From positions 1 to 55,040 of the forward strand of contig JARKQH010000064.1 in assembly GCA_029974925.1 (NCBI GenBank): DNA of 55,040 nt. The letters run 5' to 3'. This DNA is from Verrucomicrobiota bacterium. GTDB taxonomy: Bacteria > Verrucomicrobiota > Verrucomicrobiia > Limisphaerales > UBA8199. The stretch's first letter is position 1; each line of letters begins with the position of its first letter. The notes beneath the pieces were generated by a model. It was not told the DNA's origin. It worked only from the letters and a program-made list of their open reading frames with translations, and searched no databases. Positions 1 to 18,178 of the stretch are shown here, in pieces. The position numbers were made by a program, and so were the translations under genes.

Positions 1-536
1 GAAATGTCGTGAGGCGCCAGGTCCCACGCCACATTGATATCCTTCTGGAACAAGCCCAGATTCAACCGCCGGGCGGCAATATACTGAACCTCCCCAATGT
101 CGCCATTGTCAATGATCTCCTTCATCCGGCGCACCGCCGGCGAGAACAGGAAGGTGTGGCCGACCATCAGGATCAGCCCCAGGCGTTCGGCCAGATTGAC
201 CAGCTCCTCCGCCTCGGCTTCGGTCCGCGCCATGGGCTTTTCAATGAACACATGTTTGCCCACGCTGAGCGCCGCCTTGGCCATCTCATAATGGAACCGG
301 ACGGGGGTGGCGACGACAATCGCGTCCAGCTCCGAGTCGTTGAGCAGGTCCTCGAAGCACCGGGTCGTGGACACCTCGGGATACAAACGGCGCATGTGGG
401 CGAGCCGCGGTTCACTGGTGTCGCAAACGATTTTCAGATGGCAATCCGGCGCCTGACGCAGGTTCCGAATCAGGTTGGGCCCCCAATAGCCGCACCCCAC
501 CACGCCTGCCCGAATGATTTGTTCCGTTGTTTTCAT
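1..536 (-). CDS. Gfo/Idh/MocA family NAD(P)-dependent oxidoreductase (3' part beyond window)
   Basis: The reverse strand opens with an ATG at 536 and stays open to the window edge, giving about 178 N-terminal residues. A Rossmann dinucleotide-binding loop (GVVGCGYWG, residues 11-19) is followed by the family's EKP motif (IEKPM, about 98-102), whose lysine contacts substrate and cofactor. The sequence resembles the WlbA-like branch that oxidises UDP-sugars during surface polysaccharide synthesis. The upstream initiating sugar transferase ends only 4 bp before this start on the same strand, so the two are probably co-transcribed in a polysaccharide locus continuing to the left. The substrate cannot be fixed because the C-terminal domain is missing. 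Confidence 0.88.
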   Translation of the reverse strand, partial: MKTTEQIIRAGVVGCGYWGPNLIRNLRQAPDCHLKIVCDTSEPRLAHMRRLYPEVSTTRCFEDLLNDSELDAIVVATPVRFHYEMAKAALSVGKHVFIEKPMARTEAEAEELVNLAERLGLILMVGHTFLFSPAVRRMKEIIDNGDIGEVQYIAARRLNLGLFQKDINVAWDLAPHDI

Positions 537-1272: not shown

Positions 1273-1332
1273 TTTAATCCGTGTTTACAATGACTTATCA
1301 TCACCTGTTACAGAAAAGTCGCAATTCCACTG

Positions 1333-1364
1333 ATTACGGAGAGGGGGGTCGGGGTTATTACGGA
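1333..1364 (-). promoter_or_regulatory. Two direct repeats 24 bp apart upstream of the sugar transferase gene
   Basis: The octamer TCCGTAAT (minus strand) occurs exactly twice, at 1357-1364 and 1333-1340, with start-to-start spacing of 24 bp and a C-rich sequence between. The pair lies about 60-90 bp upstream of the sugar transferase start at 1272, a usual place for activator sites. A small palindrome, CTGTAACAG, lies between it and the gene. Function as an operator is inferred. Confidence 0.4.
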
Positions 1365-1380
1365 AAGGTCCTCAGCTAGA

Positions 1381-1442
1381 AGCGCATGGCGGCCAGCCGC
1401 TCATCCCCCAGCCTGACGTAATTCAGGCTGTCCTAATGCGCT
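1381..1442. other. Foldable element with nested inverted repeats
   Basis: The outer arms AGCGCAT (1381-1387) and ATGCGCT (1436-1442) are perfectly complementary. They enclose a perfect 8-bp hairpin, CAGCCTGA (1409-1416) / TCAGGCTG (1423-1430) with a 6-base loop, and a GC-rich self-complementary stretch near 1389-1401. As RNA this could form a small branched structure. It lies upstream of the direct repeats and of the sugar transferase gene. It could be a small RNA, a dispersed repeat or a regulatory element; the window holds only one copy. Confidence 0.35.
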
Positions 1443-1938: not shown

Positions 1939-4900
1939 TTAGAGGGGGGACTCCCCCGCGAGGTAAACCGCCGCGCGCAAGGGGATCCGCAGGTTTGGCG
2001 AAGCTGCCAGCTCGTCATCCCCCAGCTCGGTCATGACGCGGTGCAGGAGGTAGATTTGCATCAGGTCATGCAGGTCCTGTTCGGCCGTGGGGATCAGGCC
2101 CGATCCCTCCAGCCGGTGAACGTAGGCCTTGAGGTAAGCCACCCCCACCCAAACGTTCCAATAGCGAATCCACGGTTCACAGAGGGCGAACTTGTCCTCG
2201 GGAATGCAACCTTGTTCGACATGGCGACGCCAGCCCGCATGCGCCGCATAATGAAACGCCCGCACCAACGCGGCCGCATCGCGCAGAGGCGAGCGCTTGA
2301 TCCGGCGTTCGCTCAGCGGCAGGCGGGCCTCACCCTCGAGGTCGAAAAAGATGAAGTCTTTGCCCGTCCACAGCACCTGGCTGAGGTGACAGTCGCCGTG
2401 GATGCGGATGCGGCGGGCGTCAATGCGGCCCTGCAGCACGGAACGGAAGCGTTCGAGGAACGCGCGTTCCAAGTCGGCCACCTGACGCGCCAGAGACTGG
2501 AGTTCCGGCGCGAGGGCGCCCAAGCGCGAACGGAGGCGGCGAAGGCTGCGGGTCGTGACGTTGCGCATGGACTGGAACAGCCCCCGTTGATAGTGGGAGG
2601 TGAAGGGCTCGGGAACGGCATCGGGTTCCTGGCCGGCGGCGAGCGCCAGGTGCAGCTCCGCCGTGCGTTGTCCCAGAAGCCGTGCGCTTTCAAGGTAGGT
2701 GCCAATGCGGTCGGCAGCCTCCGAAGGAATGTCCTGTTGCAGCAGGCGGATGGCCTCCAGGGGCGCGGGAGGAGCCGGCACGCCCTGCGCCACCCAGGAA
2801 CTGACCCGGTCATAGTAACGGCCCAGCGCATCCAGCGTGTAGTCCCACGCATCTTTTGCATAGGGCACAAAATCGTGCGCGACGGCCAGAGTCGTGCCCG
2901 CGCCGGCCGCGTCCCGATAATCCAGCGCCCCGGCCAGCCGCGAGGCATGGGGGAAGGCCCGGGCAGCCAGCCAGCGCCCCAATTCGACTTCCGGATGAAT
3001 GCCTGTTTCGAGGCGGCGGTACAGCTTCAGGATGATTCGGTCACCGAATTGCAATAACGAGTTGTGGCGTTCCAGGCGCACCACTTCGGGAGGCAACGCC
3101 ACGGCTTGCGACAGCAACACTCGAGACTCGCCGATTCGGCTGCCCTCCACCTCCCCCCCGGCGCTCTTGAGCCGCGTCCGCTGCCAGACCAGTTGCAGCA
3201 GCGCCCGGCCAAACGCGGGCAGAATCACGGCGTCAACGAGCACTCCCGCCTCTTCCCCGGCGCCATTTTGCAGCTCGGCCACCACCCGTCCGGGCCGCTC
3301 CGCGCGCAACCGGCTGGCCTCCGGGCCGCTGACGCCGGCCAGTGGAACATGGTAAAGCTCGGTTTCGCCGCCCACAAATTCCACCGCGACGAAGTTAAGG
3401 CGGGCCTCGCCGCCGCTGTCGAGCGGCAATCCGATGCTTTCCTTGAGCGAGACCCGGAGAATCCGCCGTTTGGTGTCGAACCAAGGCTGCTGCAGCAAGT
3501 GGCCGGCCAGCAACGTTTCGAGCCGCAGCCGCAGCCCGCCGGAAAAGACTTCCTGCCAGTTGTCCCTGACCACCAGGCGCCGCTCCCGGCCCCCGACTAC
3601 GACCGGGGATTGCGCACCCGGACCGCCCAGCGAAAACCAATAGAAGGCGTGAGGGCCCAGAGTGAGAAAGTAGGGGCGGTCGGTGATTTCCGGGAATTCG
3701 TTGCCCCCAAAGAGTTCCATCGGAACTTTGCGTTTGAACGCCGAAAGATCCAGATGAACGGGCTGAACGAAGCGGGAGAGGTTGGCAACCACGAGGAGGG
3801 TCTCCTCGCCGAACCGGAGGACATAACTGAGAATCTTGCGGTTGTCTGGCTGCAGAAACTCGCACTTGCCCTCGCCCAGGGCGCGCCAGCGTTTGCGCAG
3901 GGCCAGCATCCGCCGCATCCACCACAACAGCGAGTGAGGGTTGGCCAACTGCGTCTCGACGTTAACCGCCTCATAGTGGTAGGCGGGGTCCAAAATGATG
4001 GGCAGGTAAAGGCTCTGCGGATTGGCCCGGGAAAAGCCCGCGTTCTTGTCCGAACTCCACTGCATCGGGGTGCGGACGCCGTTCCGATCGCCAAGATAAA
4101 TATTCTCGCCCAGCCCGATTTCGTCGCCGTAATAGACCACGGGGGTGCCGGGCAGCGAGAAGAGCAGCGCGTTCAACAGTTCGATGCGCTTCCGGTCGTT
4201 GCCCAACAACGGCGCCAGCCGGCGGCGAATGCCGAGGTTCAGCCGCGCCTGGTGCGTTTGCGCGTACATCCGATACATGTAGTCCCGTTCCTCATCCGTC
4301 ACCATTTCCAGCGTCAGCTCGTCGTGGTTGCGCAGAAACAACGCCCATTGCCCGGTTTCGGGCAGGGAGGGGGTCTGCTCGAGAATGTCCACCACGGGAT
4401 GGCGGTCCTCCATGCGCAGCGCCATGAACAGCCGCGGCATCAAGGGAAAGTGGAAGGCCATGTGGCACTCATCGCCCCGCCCCTGGCCGAAATAGGCCAC
4501 GGCATCCTCGGGCCACTGGTTGGCTTCGGCCAGCAGCATGCGGTCCCGGTACTTTGCGTCCACGTGCGCCCGCAGGGTTTTTAGAAACTGGTGGGTTTCC
4601 GGCAGGTTTTCACAATTGGTGCCCTCGCGCTCGTAAAGGTAGGGCACCGCATCCAGACGCAGCCCGTCCACGCCCAAATCAAGCCAGAAATCCAGCACCT
4701 TGAACATGGCTTCGTGCACTTCCGGATTCTCGTAGTTGAGGTCGGGCTGATGGGAAAAGAACCGGTGCCAATAGTAGGCGTTGGCGGTGTGATCCCAGCT
4801 CCAGTTCGAGATTTCGACATCTTTGAAAATAATCCGGGCATCCCGGTAGCGCTGCGGCGTATCGCTCCAGACATAGAAGTTGCGCCAGCGAGAGCCGGGG

Positions 4901-5286
4901 CGGGCCTGCCGGGCTCGCTGGAACCAGGGATGTTGATCCGAGGTGTGGTTGAGGACCAGCTCGGTGATCACCCGGAGCCCGAGCCGGTGGGCTTCCCTGA
5001 GAAACCGCTTGAAGTCCGCCAACGTGCCGTACAGGGGATGCACATCGCAGTAATCGGCGATATCGTAGCCGTCATCGCGCAAGGGCGACGGGTAAAATGG
5101 GAGCAGCCAGACGGCTGTCACGCCCAGGTCTTTCAAATACTCCAATTTGCAGGTCAGCCCCCGGAAATCACCAACACCGTTGCCGTCGCTGTCGTAAAAC
5201 GCGCGCACGTGCAGTTGGTAAATCACGCCGCTCTTGTACCACAAGGAGTCGGAATCCAAGGCCGGAGGGGATGGGGGAGGTTTCAT
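1939..5286 (-). CDS. treS: Trehalose synthase (maltose alpha-D-glucosyltransferase) fused to maltokinase
   Basis: This is a 1115-aa fusion. The N-terminal GH13 domain (about 15-550) is TreS, which interconverts maltose and trehalose. Its catalytic residues are visible: nucleophile Asp in DGLRLDAVPY (about D212), acid/base Glu in LLAEANQW (about E254) and the Asp of RNHDEL (about D322). The C-terminal half (about 590-1110) is a Pep2/Mak-type maltokinase with HGDCHLSQVLW and a DLEGE metal-binding segment near residues 950-990. It would make maltose-1-phosphate, the donor for GlgE alpha-glucan synthesis; no glgE lies in the window. I chose the ATG at 5286 because homology begins shortly after it; an in-frame start at 5322 adds 12 residues. 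It follows the otsA-otsB fusion on the same strand after a 103-bp gap. Confidence 0.93.
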   Translation of the reverse strand: MKPPPSPPALDSDSLWYKSGVIYQLHVRAFYDSDGNGVGDFRGLTCKLEYLKDLGVTAVWLLPFYPSPLRDDGYDIADYCDVHPLYGTLADFKRFLREAHRLGLRVITELVLNHTSDQHPWFQRARQARPGSRWRNFYVWSDTPQRYRDARIIFKDVEISNWSWDHTANAYYWHRFFSHQPDLNYENPEVHEAMFKVLDFWLDLGVDGLRLDAVPYLYEREGTNCENLPETHQFLKTLRAHVDAKYRDRMLLAEANQWPEDAVAYFGQGRGDECHMAFHFPLMPRLFMALRMEDRHPVVDILEQTPSLPETGQWALFLRNHDELTLEMVTDEERDYMYRMYAQTHQARLNLGIRRRLAPLLGNDRKRIELLNALLFSLPGTPVVYYGDEIGLGENIYLGDRNGVRTPMQWSSDKNAGFSRANPQSLYLPIILDPAYHYEAVNVETQLANPHSLLWWMRRMLALRKRWRALGEGKCEFLQPDNRKILSYVLRFGEETLLVVANLSRFVQPVHLDLSAFKRKVPMELFGGNEFPEITDRPYFLTLGPHAFYWFSLGGPGAQSPVVVGGRERRLVVRDNWQEVFSGGLRLRLETLLAGHLLQQPWFDTKRRILRVSLKESIGLPLDSGGEARLNFVAVEFVGGETELYHVPLAGVSGPEASRLRAERPGRVVAELQNGAGEEAGVLVDAVILPAFGRALLQLVWQRTRLKSAGGEVEGSRIGESRVLLSQAVALPPEVVRLERHNSLLQFGDRIILKLYRRLETGIHPEVELGRWLAARAFPHASRLAGALDYRDAAGAGTTLAVAHDFVPYAKDAWDYTLDALGRYYDRVSSWVAQGVPAPPAPLEAIRLLQQDIPSEAADRIGTYLESARLLGQRTAELHLALAAGQEPDAVPEPFTSHYQRGLFQSMRNVTTRSLRRLRSRLGALAPELQSLARQVADLERAFLERFRSVLQGRIDARRIRIHGDCHLSQVLWTGKDFIFFDLEGEARLPLSERRIKRSPLRDAAALVRAFHYAAHAGWRRHVEQGCIPEDKFALCEPWIRYWNVWVGVAYLKAYVHRLEGSGLIPTAEQDLHDLMQIYLLHRVMTELGDDELAASPNLRIPLRAAVYLAGESPL

Positions 5287-5389
5287 GGCGAAAGGAGTCA
5301 GCGAGGGCGTTGTCCCGCCCATCGGGGATCAAGCGGCGGCGCAGCAGCCCCCTTCGGAGGGAAGGCGCAAGGGCAACAAACCAGAGCGG

Positions 5390-7678
5390 TCATGCGGGGG
5401 GCGGGAGAGGCCGCGGCGATTGGACGGCATCCGGATTCGGACCGGCAGGGCTTTCACTGGCGCTGGCGGCGCCAGGATGGCGCTCGAGCATCTCGCGCAG
5501 CAGCCGCCGGACGGCCGCGGGGTTGGCCAGATGATATCGCGCGGCCGTTTGCGCCATGCCCACCCGGACCGAGCAGGCGGTCTCCGGCAGCGCCCGGAAC
5601 AAATCCTCATCCGTCCAATCGTCGCCGATGGCGAGCACAAAATCCGCCTGGACGGTGGCCAGCCATTCCGTGGCGGCGGTGCCCTTGCTAACGCCGGTGT
5701 TGCGGACCTCGAGCACTTTGTTTCCCTCGAGCACCTGCACGTCAATGTTGCGGGTGTAATCGGACAGGTCATCCCGCAGTTCGCTGGCCCGGATGGCCGC
5801 CTGTTCCGGGTCGGCGCGGCGGTAGTGCCAGGCCAGCGAAAATTCCTTCTCCTCGAGCAGCGCTCCGGGCAGGCGGTCCACATACAACTGCAGAATCGGA
5901 CGGACTCGGTCTTTCCACTCGGTGGTGATGGTCCGCAACGCCCGCCATTCGCCCCCCTTGGGCCGCAACCAGACGCCGTGCTCGGCCACCAGCGTAATGG
6001 GCAGCGGGCCGAACCAGCCTTCCAAGTCCGCCCGCGGCCGGCCACTGATAATGGCGACATGGTTGGCCGCGTCTCCCGCCAAACCCTCGAGGAGGGCCAG
6101 CAGTTCCGCATCCGGCCGGGCCAGGGGCGGCTTTTCCTCGAAGGGCACCAACGTGCCGTCGTAATCGAGCAACAGCGCCCGTCGCCGCGCCGCGGCGTAG
6201 TGCTGCATCACGCTGCCATGCGCCTTCCCGGTCAGCGACCGGGCCCGGCGGGCGGCCTCGGTCTTCTGCGTGGAGAGCAACCCTTGAATAAACTCCTCTG
6301 CCCACCGGTTAACGTCATAGCGGCGCAGCCGTTCCTGGAGCAGCGTGTTTCGGCGAACCTGCTCCTCCAGGGGCATGGCCAGCGCCTGCTCGAGCGCCCG
6401 GGCAAACTCGTCCTCGTGGAACGGATTGATCACCAGCGCCTCGCCCATTTCCTTGGCCGCGCCGGCCATCTCGCTGAGAATCAGAACGCCGGACCGGTCC
6501 GGACGCGAGGCGACGAATTCCTTGGCGACGAGGTTCATGCCGTCGCGCAGGGGGGTGATCAGCGCCACATCGCACATGCGATACAAAGCCACAATCTCGT
6601 CAAAGCCCAGGTTCCGGTATTGGTACACCAGCGGCGTCCATTGCACATTGCCGTGCGCCCCCACAATCCGGCCCACCGTCTGCTCCAGTTCCTGCTTCAT
6701 CGCCTGGTAGGTTTCCACCCCCGTCCGCGATGGCGCCACCGAGATCACGAAGACCACTTTGCCCCGCCAGTGCGGATTCCGCCGCAGAAACAGATCATAA
6801 CCCCGCAAGCGGTTGATCAGACCCTTGGTGTAATCCAAGCGGTCCACGGAAAAGATCACTTTTTGATCGGCGCGCTGCGCCCGCAATTCGTTGGCCCGCT
6901 CCTCCGTCTCGGGGGCCGCGGCCGCCCGCGCAAAGCGGTCAAAGTCAATCCCCATCGGAAAGGTATCCACCTTGACCACCCGGTCGCGCAAAGTCAGTTG
7001 TCCGAGCTGATGCTCGTAACCCGCGGTTCGCAAGACACAACTCAGGAAATGCCGCGTGTAGTCATGCGTGTGAAACCCGACCAGGCTCGCGCCCAGCAGC
7101 CCTTCAATGATTTCCCCCCGCCACGCCCCGGGCAGCAGCCGGAACACCTCGTAAGACGGAAACGGGATGTGCAGAAAGAAGCCAATGAGCATTTCCGGAA
7201 AATGTTCCCGAATCAGCCGGGGCAGCAGCATCAACTGGTAATCGTGCACCCAGACCACGTCGTCCGGTTGCAGGGTTCGCAAAACGGCTTCCGCAAACCG
7301 ACCGTTCACCTCCCGGTACTCGGCCCAGTAATCCTCCTGATAGCGCGCCAGCGTCGGAAAATAGTGAAACAGCGGCCAGATGGTCTTGTTGCAGAAGCCG
7401 TGATAGAACCGCTCCATGCTTTCCTCGGGAAGAAACACCGGCACGGCCCGAAATCGCTGCTGGCCATATTCCCGAACCCGCTCCTGATGCTCCGGGGCGA
7501 TGTTGCCTCCCGGCCAGCCAAACCACAGGTAATTGTGGTTGTCGTCCCGCTTCCCTTTGGCCTCAAGGTAACTCCAGAGCCCAGTGGTCAGGCCCCCGGA
7601 ACTGGACCGAAAGCGGGGCGTTCCGTCCTTCACCGAAACGGTGAATGGCAGGCGATTGGAAATAATGATCAACCGCAT
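5390..7678 (-). CDS. otsA: Bifunctional trehalose-6-phosphate synthase/phosphatase (OtsA-OtsB fusion)
   Basis: This 762-aa protein begins with the GT20 signature (IIISNRLPF at residues 4-12, then [10 protein letters not shown]) and has a full OtsA domain to about residue 465. That domain joins UDP- or ADP-glucose to glucose-6-phosphate. A HAD-type OtsB phosphatase follows (about 490-760), with nucleophile motif LLLDYDGTL (near 505), IISGRP and the metal-binding GDDWTDED (near 690). One polypeptide therefore probably makes trehalose from sugar nucleotide and glucose-6-phosphate, as in eukaryotic TPS/TPP fusions and some bacteria. It lies between a universal stress protein gene and the TreS-maltokinase gene, all on the minus strand. 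Synthesis and interconversion of trehalose thus sit together in an apparent stress cluster. Confidence 0.94.
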
Positions 7679-10027: not shown

Positions 10028-13000
10028 GACTGACACTTCAGCCTGAACTGCAGCGTCGCGCCTGCCGGCACTTTTAACCCGTCGCCCAAGGTCATCAACA
10101 CCCGGCGCTCCTCCTGCCGGGCGTCGAGCCGCACCGGCCGGCCATCCAACGTTGCCAAGGCCCTCTCCAGCCGGCTGCCCGCCGGCAGCTCCAGGCTGAA
10201 GGTCTTCACCCGCACTCCGCCCCATTTCACCGCCAACGTGGCCGTCATCGTATCCCCCTCGCGCTTCTGTTCGTAGGCGCCCCAGCCATCCGCTGTGGTA
10301 AAGGCGGCGCGAAAATGCTCCGGCTTGAACCGCGGCGCAAAGCCCACGTGCCCCCCCGGGCCATGGCTGTTGAAGCCGCAGAGGGCGAGGAACACCCCGT
10401 AGCTGGCCATGGCGCGGGCATAATGGTCGCCGCATTCAACCTCGTTCCACGGATTATGCCGGGAGGGATGATGGCGCTCATGAACGCCGCGGCAGATGGC
10501 GAGGGCCTCGGTGAGCATCCCTTCCCACACCATGTGGCCCGCGACCTGGTATTCAATCCCCGTCCAGACTTCGTCACGATACAATACCGAGTCGGGTCCG
10601 AGGTGTTTCGACTTCGGCCACGTGCAGGTGAACAGGCCCGCTTCGCCCGGCCGCGCAAACCATCGTTGCGGCGGATGCGCCGCGTTTTGCGGGCCAATGT
10701 CCGGCGCCCAGTTGTAAACGTACACCGCGCGCAACGCCGACAGCACTTTCTCCCGCGGATACAAATACCCCAGCCCCACCTGGTGCGCCCAACCCTGGCC
10801 AAAAAGCTGATCCGAAAGGCACCCGTCGCCGTACTGATGTTTCGGGTGCTTCTTGAGGTCCACCTCCTGAACAAAGTACTCGCCGTTGAACAAACGCTCG
10901 ACCGTCAGGCGGCTGCCGGCTTCAAAAACCTTCCGGCATTTGGCCGCAAACTCGCTGTCGCCCACCTCCCGAGCCATTTCCTCGGCGGCGCGCAACGCGC
11001 CAAGGTACAGCGAACCGACCATGGTATTGGCGCCGAAAAAGTTGATGTCGTACGTGTTGTGCTGCGACCCTTCGATCAGGCCGTCTCCATTCCCATCCTG
11101 GTCCATGAGGAACTCGACGGTCTTGCGAATCTTTGGCCAGTTGCGCTCCAAGAACCGGCTGTCCAGGCTCATCTGGTGTTCCCGCAGACATTTGAGGGCA
11201 GTGCCGCCCTGGCTGTCCCCCGCCCAGAAGTCGTTGCTCTCACCCCGAAAATTGACGGCGCCGGTGGCGGCCACAAACCCCGGACCGAAGTCCTGCATTT
11301 CCCGCACGGAACGTTCGAGTTCCGGGAAAAGGCGCGCCAGAGCGTGGGCATAATTCCATACGTGCGCGCAGGTGCCGGCGCAGCAACGCACGCCTTCCCA
11401 AGCCCAAAACCGGCCATTGGCACGCCACTGGCACGTGCCGCTGGCCAGAATTGACACCGGCGCAAAAAGCCGGTCCAGCAGCCACCACGGCAGGGTCGAA
11501 TCGTACCATGTATCCCGCCACAACCGCGTCTGACCCGCCAGCCGCTCGAAATGTTGCGCAAGATAAACCGCCACCGCCTCGGCATCGGGGAACCGGGTTC
11601 CGTAATGATTCCCATGCTGCGGCAGATGCGGAAAATACCACACCACCAGGAAGGTCACCTGCTGCTCTTCCCCCGGCCGCAATTGAATGGTTTTGCACAG
11701 ACCCCCCACCAGGGCGCGGCCAAACGGTTTCTCGGCGCGGGTCGAGCCCTCCCCCTGCCCCCCGCCGCTCAGCCACGCCGCCAGGCTGTCATCCGGCAAA
11801 TCCGCCAGCGGAACCACCCCCTCGCTCGGGCCCAGCAGGGCCAGCCCCAGCGTGCCGTAATCGGCCTGGGCCTCCAACGGCCCCTCCAAACCGCGGCGCG
11901 GGACGTCGCTTAATTCAATCTGGTCAATGTTGATGTGGCCCCATCCCCCGGATTCCCGGTCCACAATCTCGAGTCGAAGCTCGCGCCCCAGGAATTCCTT
12001 CACATTCCAGCTTTGCCACGCAAGCTGCTCCCGATCCCGCCCGGTTGCCGTGCGCACCACCTTGCCATCAGCCAAAAGATTGATGCACGTCCGGCCCGCA
12101 TGCGAACCGCCGCCGATCAGGAAGTTCAGGAAGGGCCGCTCCACTTTGAACGGCGGCGAGGTCAGTTTTCCCTGGGGCCGGTCCCCGTCAGTGAACGTAT
12201 TGACCAAACCCCGCCCCCGAAACCCGCTGACCTCCTGCTGCCCCCGCAGAGTCCCGCTCGCGGGTCCCGTGCCAAAAGCCGTGCCCGTGGTTTTCCAATC
12301 GCCGTAGTCATTTCCCTCGAAATCCGCCAGAACGATCGGAGGCCGCGCGGGCTGCTCCGCAGCCTTCACCGCTCGCGCCGACCCGAGTATCAGGGACAGA
12401 TTGTCCCGCCGCACAAAGCGGTTCTCGCGCACGCCGTCGAAATACTGGCCGCTGCGGCAACACACGGCATTCTCGAGCCGGCCCGCAAGCCGGACCTCCG
12501 CAGCGCTCGCCCCTCTGTTTTTCAACTTGAAGTTGAGCACCGTCACCGGCAAGGCCGAATCCGCCGCGTTGAGCGGAATAAACGGGGAAAAAGCCTCCAG
12601 CTCGACGGCTACGGGAAACTCCGGGTCCCGATACTCCACTCGCCCAATGGGGTATTCGCCGCGAAAGCGGACTCCGGGAAAGGCGGCCCGGTCCAGCGTG
12701 CGGGTGGCACTCTGCTGCCCCCAGCGAACCTGCAGAGCAAAACCCTGCTTCACGGCCTGGACGGCCTCGGGCACCGCCTGATAATGCGTCCCAAAACGCG
12801 CCTCCGCGGGCGAATCATTGAAAATGTCCCAATGACTCAGCGTGCCATCCCCCCGAAGGTAATCCTGCCCGGCGCAAATCCGCCCCCCCGGCGTCCGGAT
12901 GTGGTTCAGTTCCTCGCCCGCATACCAGGCCGGCTCCCCCTTCTCGAACAGCGCCGCGACCCAGTCCGCGCTCAACTTCTTGTCGGCCGGCACAAAATGG

Positions 13001-17555: not shown

Positions 17556-18178
17556 ACCGCGTGCGCGTTCTGATTGCGGATGACCATGCGCTGGTGCGCT
17601 CGGCGCTCAAGTCGTTGCTCGAGGCGCAGCCCGACCTCGAGGTGGTCGGCGAGGCCGAAAACGGCGCGGCGGCGCTGGAATGCTGCCGCCGCCTGGCCCC
17701 GGACGTGGTGATCATGGACCTGGCCATGCCCGGCCGGGGAGGCATCAACGCCACCGAGGACCTCCGTCGTGAAATACCCGGGACCAAGGTTCTGGTCCTC
17801 ACGATGCACGACGACGACGCCTACCTCCGGCTGGCCCGCCTGGCCGGCGCCGCGGGATTCGTGCTCAAAAAGTCCCTGGCCACCGAGCTCATCCGCGCCA
17901 TTCGCGCCGTGGCCGCCGGCCAGCACTATTTCCCGCCGGCCGATACCGCGCCCCCGCCCCGCTTCCGCGGCGGCCTCCTCGAGCGGATCACGGAGCGGGA
18001 ACGCGAAGTGCTGGCGCTGATTGCGCTGGGCCATACAACCGCGGAAATCAGTGTCAAATTGCGGATCAGTGAAAAGACGGTCGAGAGCCACCGGGCGCAC
18101 ATCATCGAGAAGCTGGGCCTGCGCAGCCGGGCGGAGCTGGTGCGGTTTGCGTTGGAGCACGGGTTGCTGAAGGCCTGA
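17552..18178 (+). CDS. NarL/FixJ-family response regulator
   Basis: This 208-aa regulator has a receiver domain with acidic pocket DD (10-11), phospho-acceptor Asp56 in VVIMDLAMPG and Lys near 105 in VLKKS. A LuxR-type helix-turn-helix follows (about 143-205), with ITEREREVLALIALG and ISEKTVESHRAHI. It should bind DNA when phosphorylated by the kinase encoded directly upstream (4-bp overlap). Targets cannot be deduced. The next gene, a TPR lipoprotein, has its own promoter-like sequence 21 bp after this stop. Confidence 0.95.
   Translation: MNRVRVLIADDHALVRSALKSLLEAQPDLEVVGEAENGAAALECCRRLAPDVVIMDLAMPGRGGINATEDLRREIPGTKVLVLTMHDDDAYLRLARLAGAAGFVLKKSLATELIRAIRAVAAGQHYFPPADTAPPPRFRGGLLERITEREREVLALIALGHTTAEISVKLRISEKTVESHRAHIIEKLGLRSRAELVRFALEHGLLKA

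Follow-up and report, generated by a model that had tools for sequence, protein, structure and literature searches.

A putative two-box operator conserved before exopolysaccharide genes in uncultured Verrucomicrobia, with a candidate NarL/FixJ reader

The window, the whole stretch of DNA analysed here (55,040 nucleotides), comes from the genome of a Verrucomicrobiota bacterium, G000, and opens with two genes on the minus strand. The first gene of the operon, at 541–1272, encodes an initiating sugar transferase (Bac_transf, PF02397) and is the putative target of the elements described below; a further match of the protein, to the C-terminal half of EPS_sugtrans, falls short of the cut-off for that model. 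The next operon gene (3–536, minus strand) encodes a Gfo/Idh/MocA oxidoreductase and is cut by the contig end; the order Bac_transf followed by Gfo/Idh is found in orthologous loci too. Because the sugar-transferase gene lies on the minus strand, the elements ahead of it are read leftwards from 1442. On the upstream side, positions 1939–7678 contain two long genes of sugar metabolism, which encode an alpha-amylase-type protein with a maltokinase cap (1127 aa) and a trehalose-phosphate synthase/phosphatase fusion (762 aa). The upstream region 1440–1938, compared with the window's own genome, gives weak GC-rich matches only, and within it the GC-rich stretch at 1667–1718 weakly resembles several places in that genome (best E 2e-4, two on contig C203), perhaps as a small dispersed repeat.

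Two minus-strand copies of TCCGTAAT occupy 1357–1364 and 1333–1340 and, as the original prediction had it, stand exactly 24 bp apart, start to start by direct reading of the strand. The window contains three TCCGTAAT matches against 0.39 expected, the third lying far away at 11599, and the two box copies are identical at 11 of 12 bases. Read on the minus strand, 1364–1297 has the form TCCGTAAT-N16-TCCGTAAT-N4-GGAATTGC-N18-GATGAT, with the boxes abutting a -35/-10-like pair. The distal box 1 (TCCGTAATAACCCCGA, 1349–1364, minus strand) reads directly as 16 bp of imperfect dyad symmetry, of the type TCCGTA-N4-TACGGA. The proximal box 2 (TCCGTAATCAGTGGA, 1326–1340, minus strand), delimited by upstream-region comparison, overlaps the -35-like element GGAATTGCGA (1319–1328, minus strand; TTGCGA), whose GGARTTGC core is present in all seven sites of alignment A1. 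The putative -10 hexamer GATGAT (1297–1302, minus strand) begins exactly 18 nt past TTGC. This hexamer or a one-mismatch form stands at the same distance in seven of eight sites (the seven of A1 plus G004:C331), and G004:C478 is off by one. Both promoter roles are predicted; the -10-like hexamer is weak, and a sigma-70 consensus scan calls no promoter at the locus. A degenerate third box-like copy, TCTGTAAC (1307–1314, minus strand), sits within the -35/-10 spacer and is probably due to chance; it is absent at the corresponding place in the other compared sites. The separate small palindrome that had been reported in the block was not identified. An 8-mer direct repeat at 20–27 bp also appears in 54 of 500 shuffles of the 666-bp intergenic region, so the pair is unremarkable as a bare repeat and draws its weight from conservation.

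Upstream of the predicted promoter, 1381–1442 contains the nested inverted repeat that had been described, with its arms and hairpins: outer arms AGCGCAT (1381–1387) and ATGCGCT (1436–1442) enclose a hairpin (1409–1416/1423–1430) and a GC-rich hairpin. Folding of 1376–1446 yields -29.0 kcal/mol on the plus strand (z -3.4), a value equalled by only one of 200 shuffles, and -28.2 kcal/mol on the minus, or gene, strand (z -1.6). The plus-strand fold is what speaks for the block being a riboswitch or, as had been suggested, a small RNA or a dispersed repeat. Every search for relatives of the element was negative. The block at 1330–1450 finds nothing better in its own genome than E 0.09 over 20 bases, and a covariance model of 1378–1443 recovers itself at 102 bits with no second copy in the 13 genomes of the family (next best E 0.25). 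Rfam returns no match at gathering score in the window, and its three weak matches below that score in 1200–1960 all lie outside 1333–1442. We therefore reject the RNA or dispersed-repeat reading as extremely improbable; the position of the fold, ahead of the predicted promoter, also speaks against it. What is left is an inverted repeat.

The own family comprises 13 genomes, G000 and 12 others. The original prediction of further pairs at 24-bp spacing failed in the window's own genome, where the exact TCCGTAAT pair is its own sole match, but held as a layout in related genomes before sugar-transferase orthologues; judged by the own genome only, the idea would have seemed refuted. At the nucleotide level, the 12 other family genomes contain nothing that matches 1273–1460 at E 0.001. 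Forty-one homologue matches of the sugar transferase were listed, 30 of them with DNA, and the upstream regions of 19 of these 30 were read. Before the closest homologues lies TCCGTAAT, followed 22–24 bp on by TCCGTAAT or a near form, then 4 bp, GGARTTGC, 18 bp and GATGAT, so that other genera share this layout ahead of their orthologous sugar-transferase operon. Exact matches to the pattern TCCGTAATNNNNGGARTTGC number four in the 13 family genomes, and each of them lies upstream of a sugar-transferase orthologue; with two mismatches allowed it falls to chance level in most genomes, as judged by a reversed control.

For counting, a pair was defined, after the sites were known, as two TCCGTA boxes with at most two mismatches in total, 22–24 bp apart, and A at box 1 position 16. 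Within 600 bp of the gene start such a pair precedes all five homologues of at least 61% identity, none of the four at 55–57%, and one of the 21 at 51% or less; this sole positive carries two mismatches, and one of the 21 had just 16 bp ahead of the gene. The reversed-sequence control gave 60 matches in 2,451,252 positions, or 0.015 per 600 bp. One of the four homologues at 55–57% is G010:C70 (L118 4929–5010), where a one-mismatch pair lies ~80 bp ahead of the RfaH-like gene found upstream of the sugar transferase; the pair was noticed later and left uncounted.

In a wider search, CCGTAN{16,20}CCGTAN{5,7}GGARTTGC has nine matches in 320 order genomes against one in the reversed control, six of them in five of the 13 family genomes and three in the other 307. 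A stricter two-box pattern found six stretches in genome_contigs (84,980 species), four in Limisphaerales / Verrucomicrobia subdivision 3 and two strays. Judged by their length, these four are contigs of G009, G004 and G006 again, so they mainly name the group and show specificity. The result that carries most weight as independent comes from family f26, because no f26 sequence entered the model: four genomes of this family (G084, G081, G090 and G089) have the site ahead of a homologue of 63–68% identity, with Gfo/Idh after it. Comparison thus shows, at the level of sequence, that in two families of the order the orthologous Bac_transf / Gfo-Idh operon is preceded by two TCCGTA-type boxes 22–24 bp apart, and that in own-family sites the boxes are followed by GGARTTGC and GATGAT at a fixed distance. 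The two boxes are very probably a conserved operator of exopolysaccharide genes in a group of uncultured Verrucomicrobia, and its reader is probably a response regulator of a two-component system. In G009:C80 (L111 ~18073–18091) a hairpin, CTCCGGT/ACCGGAG, ends ~11 nt ahead of box 1; hairpins ahead of the boxes, that of G000 included, may be terminators of the preceding gene.

A seven-site sequence model built on alignment A1 and run over the family genomes scored its seeds at 57–67 bits and other sites of the same layout from 34.5 bits downward. A site at G004:C331 precedes a second sugar-transferase-like short frame, assigned by eye and without a tblastn match at 1e-10. Weaker sites lie ahead of UDP-sugar dehydrogenases in G006:C49 (by Pfam) and G002:C156 (by eye), of a LytTR-only frame in G006:C20 and of a receiver gene in G009:C70. 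In G008:C171 the site precedes a large surface protein and a prepilin, both identified by eye. The G006:C49 seed site stands ahead of a polysaccharide exporter and an RfaH-like antiterminator, the RfaH match being below the model cut-off. The seed site of G004:C478 (L117 2026–2574) is strong and directly precedes a 156-residue frame of unknown kind whose ATG falls about where transcription should start; a leaderless gene or a spurious frame are both possible.

A second model, R3, built from 14 sites, was run over 313 order genomes with 15 candidates scored per genome. Among the candidates scored, 79 matched at E≤0.05, in 47 of the 313 genomes; 34 of the 79 were inspected besides the 14 seeds and a few others, and chance may account for many of the weaker ones. 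Sites precede a CapD-like dehydratase in G003, a hexapeptide acyltransferase in G105 and, directly, a receiver-LytTR gene in G267 (C50). Signal peptidase I follows sites in G129 (Pfam) and in G126:C77, G125:C9 and G087:C332 (by eye). Several R3 matches stand ahead of large frames that look, by eye, like surface proteins, and the 916-residue frame behind G000:C436 has no Pfam match. Apart from the sugar-transferase sites, then, one site is strong and most are weaker, and the genes behind them belong to polysaccharide export, sugar-nucleotide metabolism, surface proteins and response regulators. The expectation that pairs would lie before polysaccharide genes was borne out by Bac_transf orthologues, the polysaccharide exporter and UDP-sugar dehydrogenases. 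The dedicated regulator of exopolysaccharide genes that had been proposed gains support, by comparison, from repeats that recur at 22–24 bp: two families have them before orthologous exopolysaccharide operons, and they also stand ahead of other envelope genes.

The anatomy of the boxes was derived from 33 sites hand-picked for two intact boxes: the 14 seeds, 16 of the 34 inspected R3 matches, one family-model site and two NarL-locus sites. Eighteen inspected R3 matches were left out (G000:C190, G089:C67, which is a copy of C100, G089:C176, G090:C20:64243, G257, G119, G129:C23, G087:C511, G087:C332, G125:C16, G147, G260, G126:C24, G128:C21, G266, G214, G120:C567 and G009:C97), as were four family-model sites (G000:C76, G008:C49, G006:C208 and G011:C24) and the NarL-locus site of G010. 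In box 1, position 16 is A in 33 sites, position 15 is G in 30 and position 13 is C in 28, and this conservation makes box 1 an imperfect palindrome, TCCGTA-N6-C-N-G-A. Its dyad averages 3.7 of six pairs over the 33 sites, against 1.5 after shuffling of the right part (largest of 1000: 2.2), a score biased upward because the sites were hand-picked and 14 of them are model seeds. Box 2, taken over 15 bp, is less palindromic, with 2.8 of six pairs in the same sites. The boxes are spaced by 23 bp in 21 sites, by 22 in seven and by 24 in five.

If GATGAT is the -10 element, transcription would start near 1290, ~7 nt after it, placing the box centres at about -43 and -66. Each box would then be one dimer site, lying where an activator usually contacts RNA polymerase on a weak sigma-70-type promoter. 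Activation is preferred over repression because of box position only. A different account takes the stretch to be mainly a promoter for an ECF-type sigma factor, with GGARTT as -35 and GATGAT as -10, and regards the upstream TCCGTAAT copy as secondary. ECF -35 elements typically begin GGAAC. The fixed spacing of GGARTTGC and GATGAT fits such a promoter, yet f26 sites lose GGARTTGC while keeping both boxes, and f46 sites have TTCAACTTTG after the boxes in its place, which makes the ECF account quite improbable. A sigma-54 promoter was rejected, since by eye the seven A1 sites have no GG-N10-GC ending at the conserved TTGC.

For the two-box operator, a candidate reader is encoded near a site in the window's own genome. 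Contig C65 of G000 carries, at 6294–6974, a 226-residue NarL/FixJ response regulator (RR) with receiver (PF00072) and GerE (PF00196) domains by Pfam, 73% identical to the RR beside the G008 site. Matches to it at E≤1e-60 occur in 67 of 313 order genomes, including all seven family genomes that gave R3 sites. At this cut-off the RR is absent from G001 and G005 (the latter 74% complete), neither of which gave an R3 match; G007 and G010 have the RR and no R3 match. Among 30 RR loci scanned, pairs lie ~40–235 bp downstream of the RR gene in G000, G008, G009 and G010, which represent four genera, the G010 pair having one mismatch. The other 26 loci, five in the family (G002, G004, G006, G007, G012) and 21 outside it, have no pair around the RR gene. 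The RR was traced from the G008 site and from one G000 site, so these two are not independent; the other G000 pair and those of G009 and G010 were found afterwards. The gene after the RR-adjacent pair is a LytR-like receiver in G000, G009 and G010 (by Pfam in G010, by eye in the others).

Outside the family, R3 matches at E≤1e-3 occur in seven of 28 genomes with an RR of at least 270 bits versus four of 272 others, a line set after the list was seen; the seven genomes belong to three families, so kinship inflates significance. The contrast weakens to 7/56 versus 4/244 when the RR is cut at E≤1e-60, and at R3 E≤0.05 it is 11/28 versus 27/272 for the 270-bit line. With 15 candidates scored per genome, 21 of the 28 gave no R3 match at E≤1e-3. 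Four of the 11 non-family genomes with R3 matches at E≤1e-3 lack the RR at E≤1e-60, and those matches may be chance.

The C65 locus of G000 (L238 2295–4465) is a dense regulatory one: the RR is followed by two LytR-like receivers (the first by eye, the second by Pfam), each with a two-box pair ahead of it (spacing 24 and 22), and a 1042-residue frame lies behind. An agmatine deiminase-like gene, recognized by eye, stands just before the NarL RR in G008, G009 and G090 (L269, L271, L283) and just before the site and receiver-LytTR gene in G267:C50 (L233).

The same operator could instead be read by a LytR/AlgR-type (LytTR) RR, with the sites before LytTR genes serving autoregulation. Sites directly precede receiver-LytTR genes in G267 and G010, the LytTR-only frame of G006:C20 and the LytR-like receivers of G000 and G009. 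The cited part of PMC4064291 describes LytTR proteins binding 8–13 bp sequences as two direct repeats ~12 bp apart, a register close to that of the boxes; the boxes bound by AgrA, PlnC and AlgR are, like ours, direct repeats in pairs, separated by about two helical turns, and AlgR governs alginate genes. The direct repeats here are 22–24 bp start to start, but box 1 is palindromic. Moreover, G012 (93% complete), which carries a strong site, gave no match to LytTR (PF04397) at E≤0.001, G001, G007 and G010 have LytTR matches without R3 matches, and Pfam recognizes no LytTR domain in two of the receivers that follow sites, in G000 and G009. We consider a LytTR reader rather unlikely. Another dimeric helix-turn-helix protein, activator or repressor, might also use the operator: palindromic tandem boxes are compatible with many families, and the signature scan near the sites covered receiver and LuxR-type domains only. 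Against such a protein stand the pairs adjoining the NarL RR gene in four genera, and we hold it to be unlikely.

A NarL-type reader is consistent with box 1, which has the hexamer-N4-hexamer inverted repeat taken as the mark of a NarL/FixJ operator. In the cited portion of PMC4797271, ComA of Bacillus subtilis is likewise a NarL-class RR and recognizes inverted hexamers (TTGCGG) separated by 4 nt, an arrangement like TCCGTA-N4-TACGGA. The hexamer, organism and regulon differ, and ComA promoters add a direct-repeat element with a 5-nt spacer. That the RR encoded at G000:C65 reads the operator is, in our estimate, an even chance. The same balance holds for the whole explanation, a two-box operator and promoter for the exopolysaccharide operon with the NarL RR as reader. 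Phosphorylation of the NarL RR by some kinase would turn on exopolysaccharide and envelope genes, and the phosphorylated RR would also switch on the neighboring LytR-like receiver.

A further parallel is the PrsK/PrsR sigma-54 system. Ahead of proteobacterial PEP-CTERM genes, a 17-nt motif that ends in TTTACA precedes a -24/-12 sigma-54 motif by 63 nt on average (Haft 2006, PMC1569441). Among the species discussed in the cited part of that paper this cis motif is confined to Proteobacteria; the sorting signal itself was first met in Verrucomicrobium by Haft and colleagues (PMC1569441). Both systems tie a conserved cis-regulatory sequence to exopolysaccharide-associated envelope genes and an RR; the TCCGTA boxes, in contrast, are 22–24 bp apart and abut a sigma-70-like -35, and the candidate regulator is of NarL and not of NtrC type. 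A literature search, with limited coverage of subscription journals, found no description of such an operator; the element is of a known kind and the motif apparently new, in a group that has been little studied. We tentatively propose, at slightly less than even odds, an undescribed Limisphaerales envelope/biofilm regulon in which tandem 16-bp palindromes, at about -43 and -66, are the sites of a NarL-type RR. It would co-control genes for exopolysaccharide initiation and export and for sugar nucleotides, along with those for signal peptidase I, prepilins and large surface proteins and that of a second RR, as a verrucomicrobial counterpart of the PrsR/sigma-54 circuit. The conserved operator and a named candidate regulator offer an entry point to polysaccharide-coat control in uncultured Limisphaerales, and the two-box motif can be used to predict regulon members in metagenome-assembled genomes.

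One further repeat was observed in G007, where the 20-mer TCCGTCATAATGAGAATTGC occurs at position 118–119 of three contigs (C350, C556 and C903) and once more on C359, perhaps as a repeat at contig ends.
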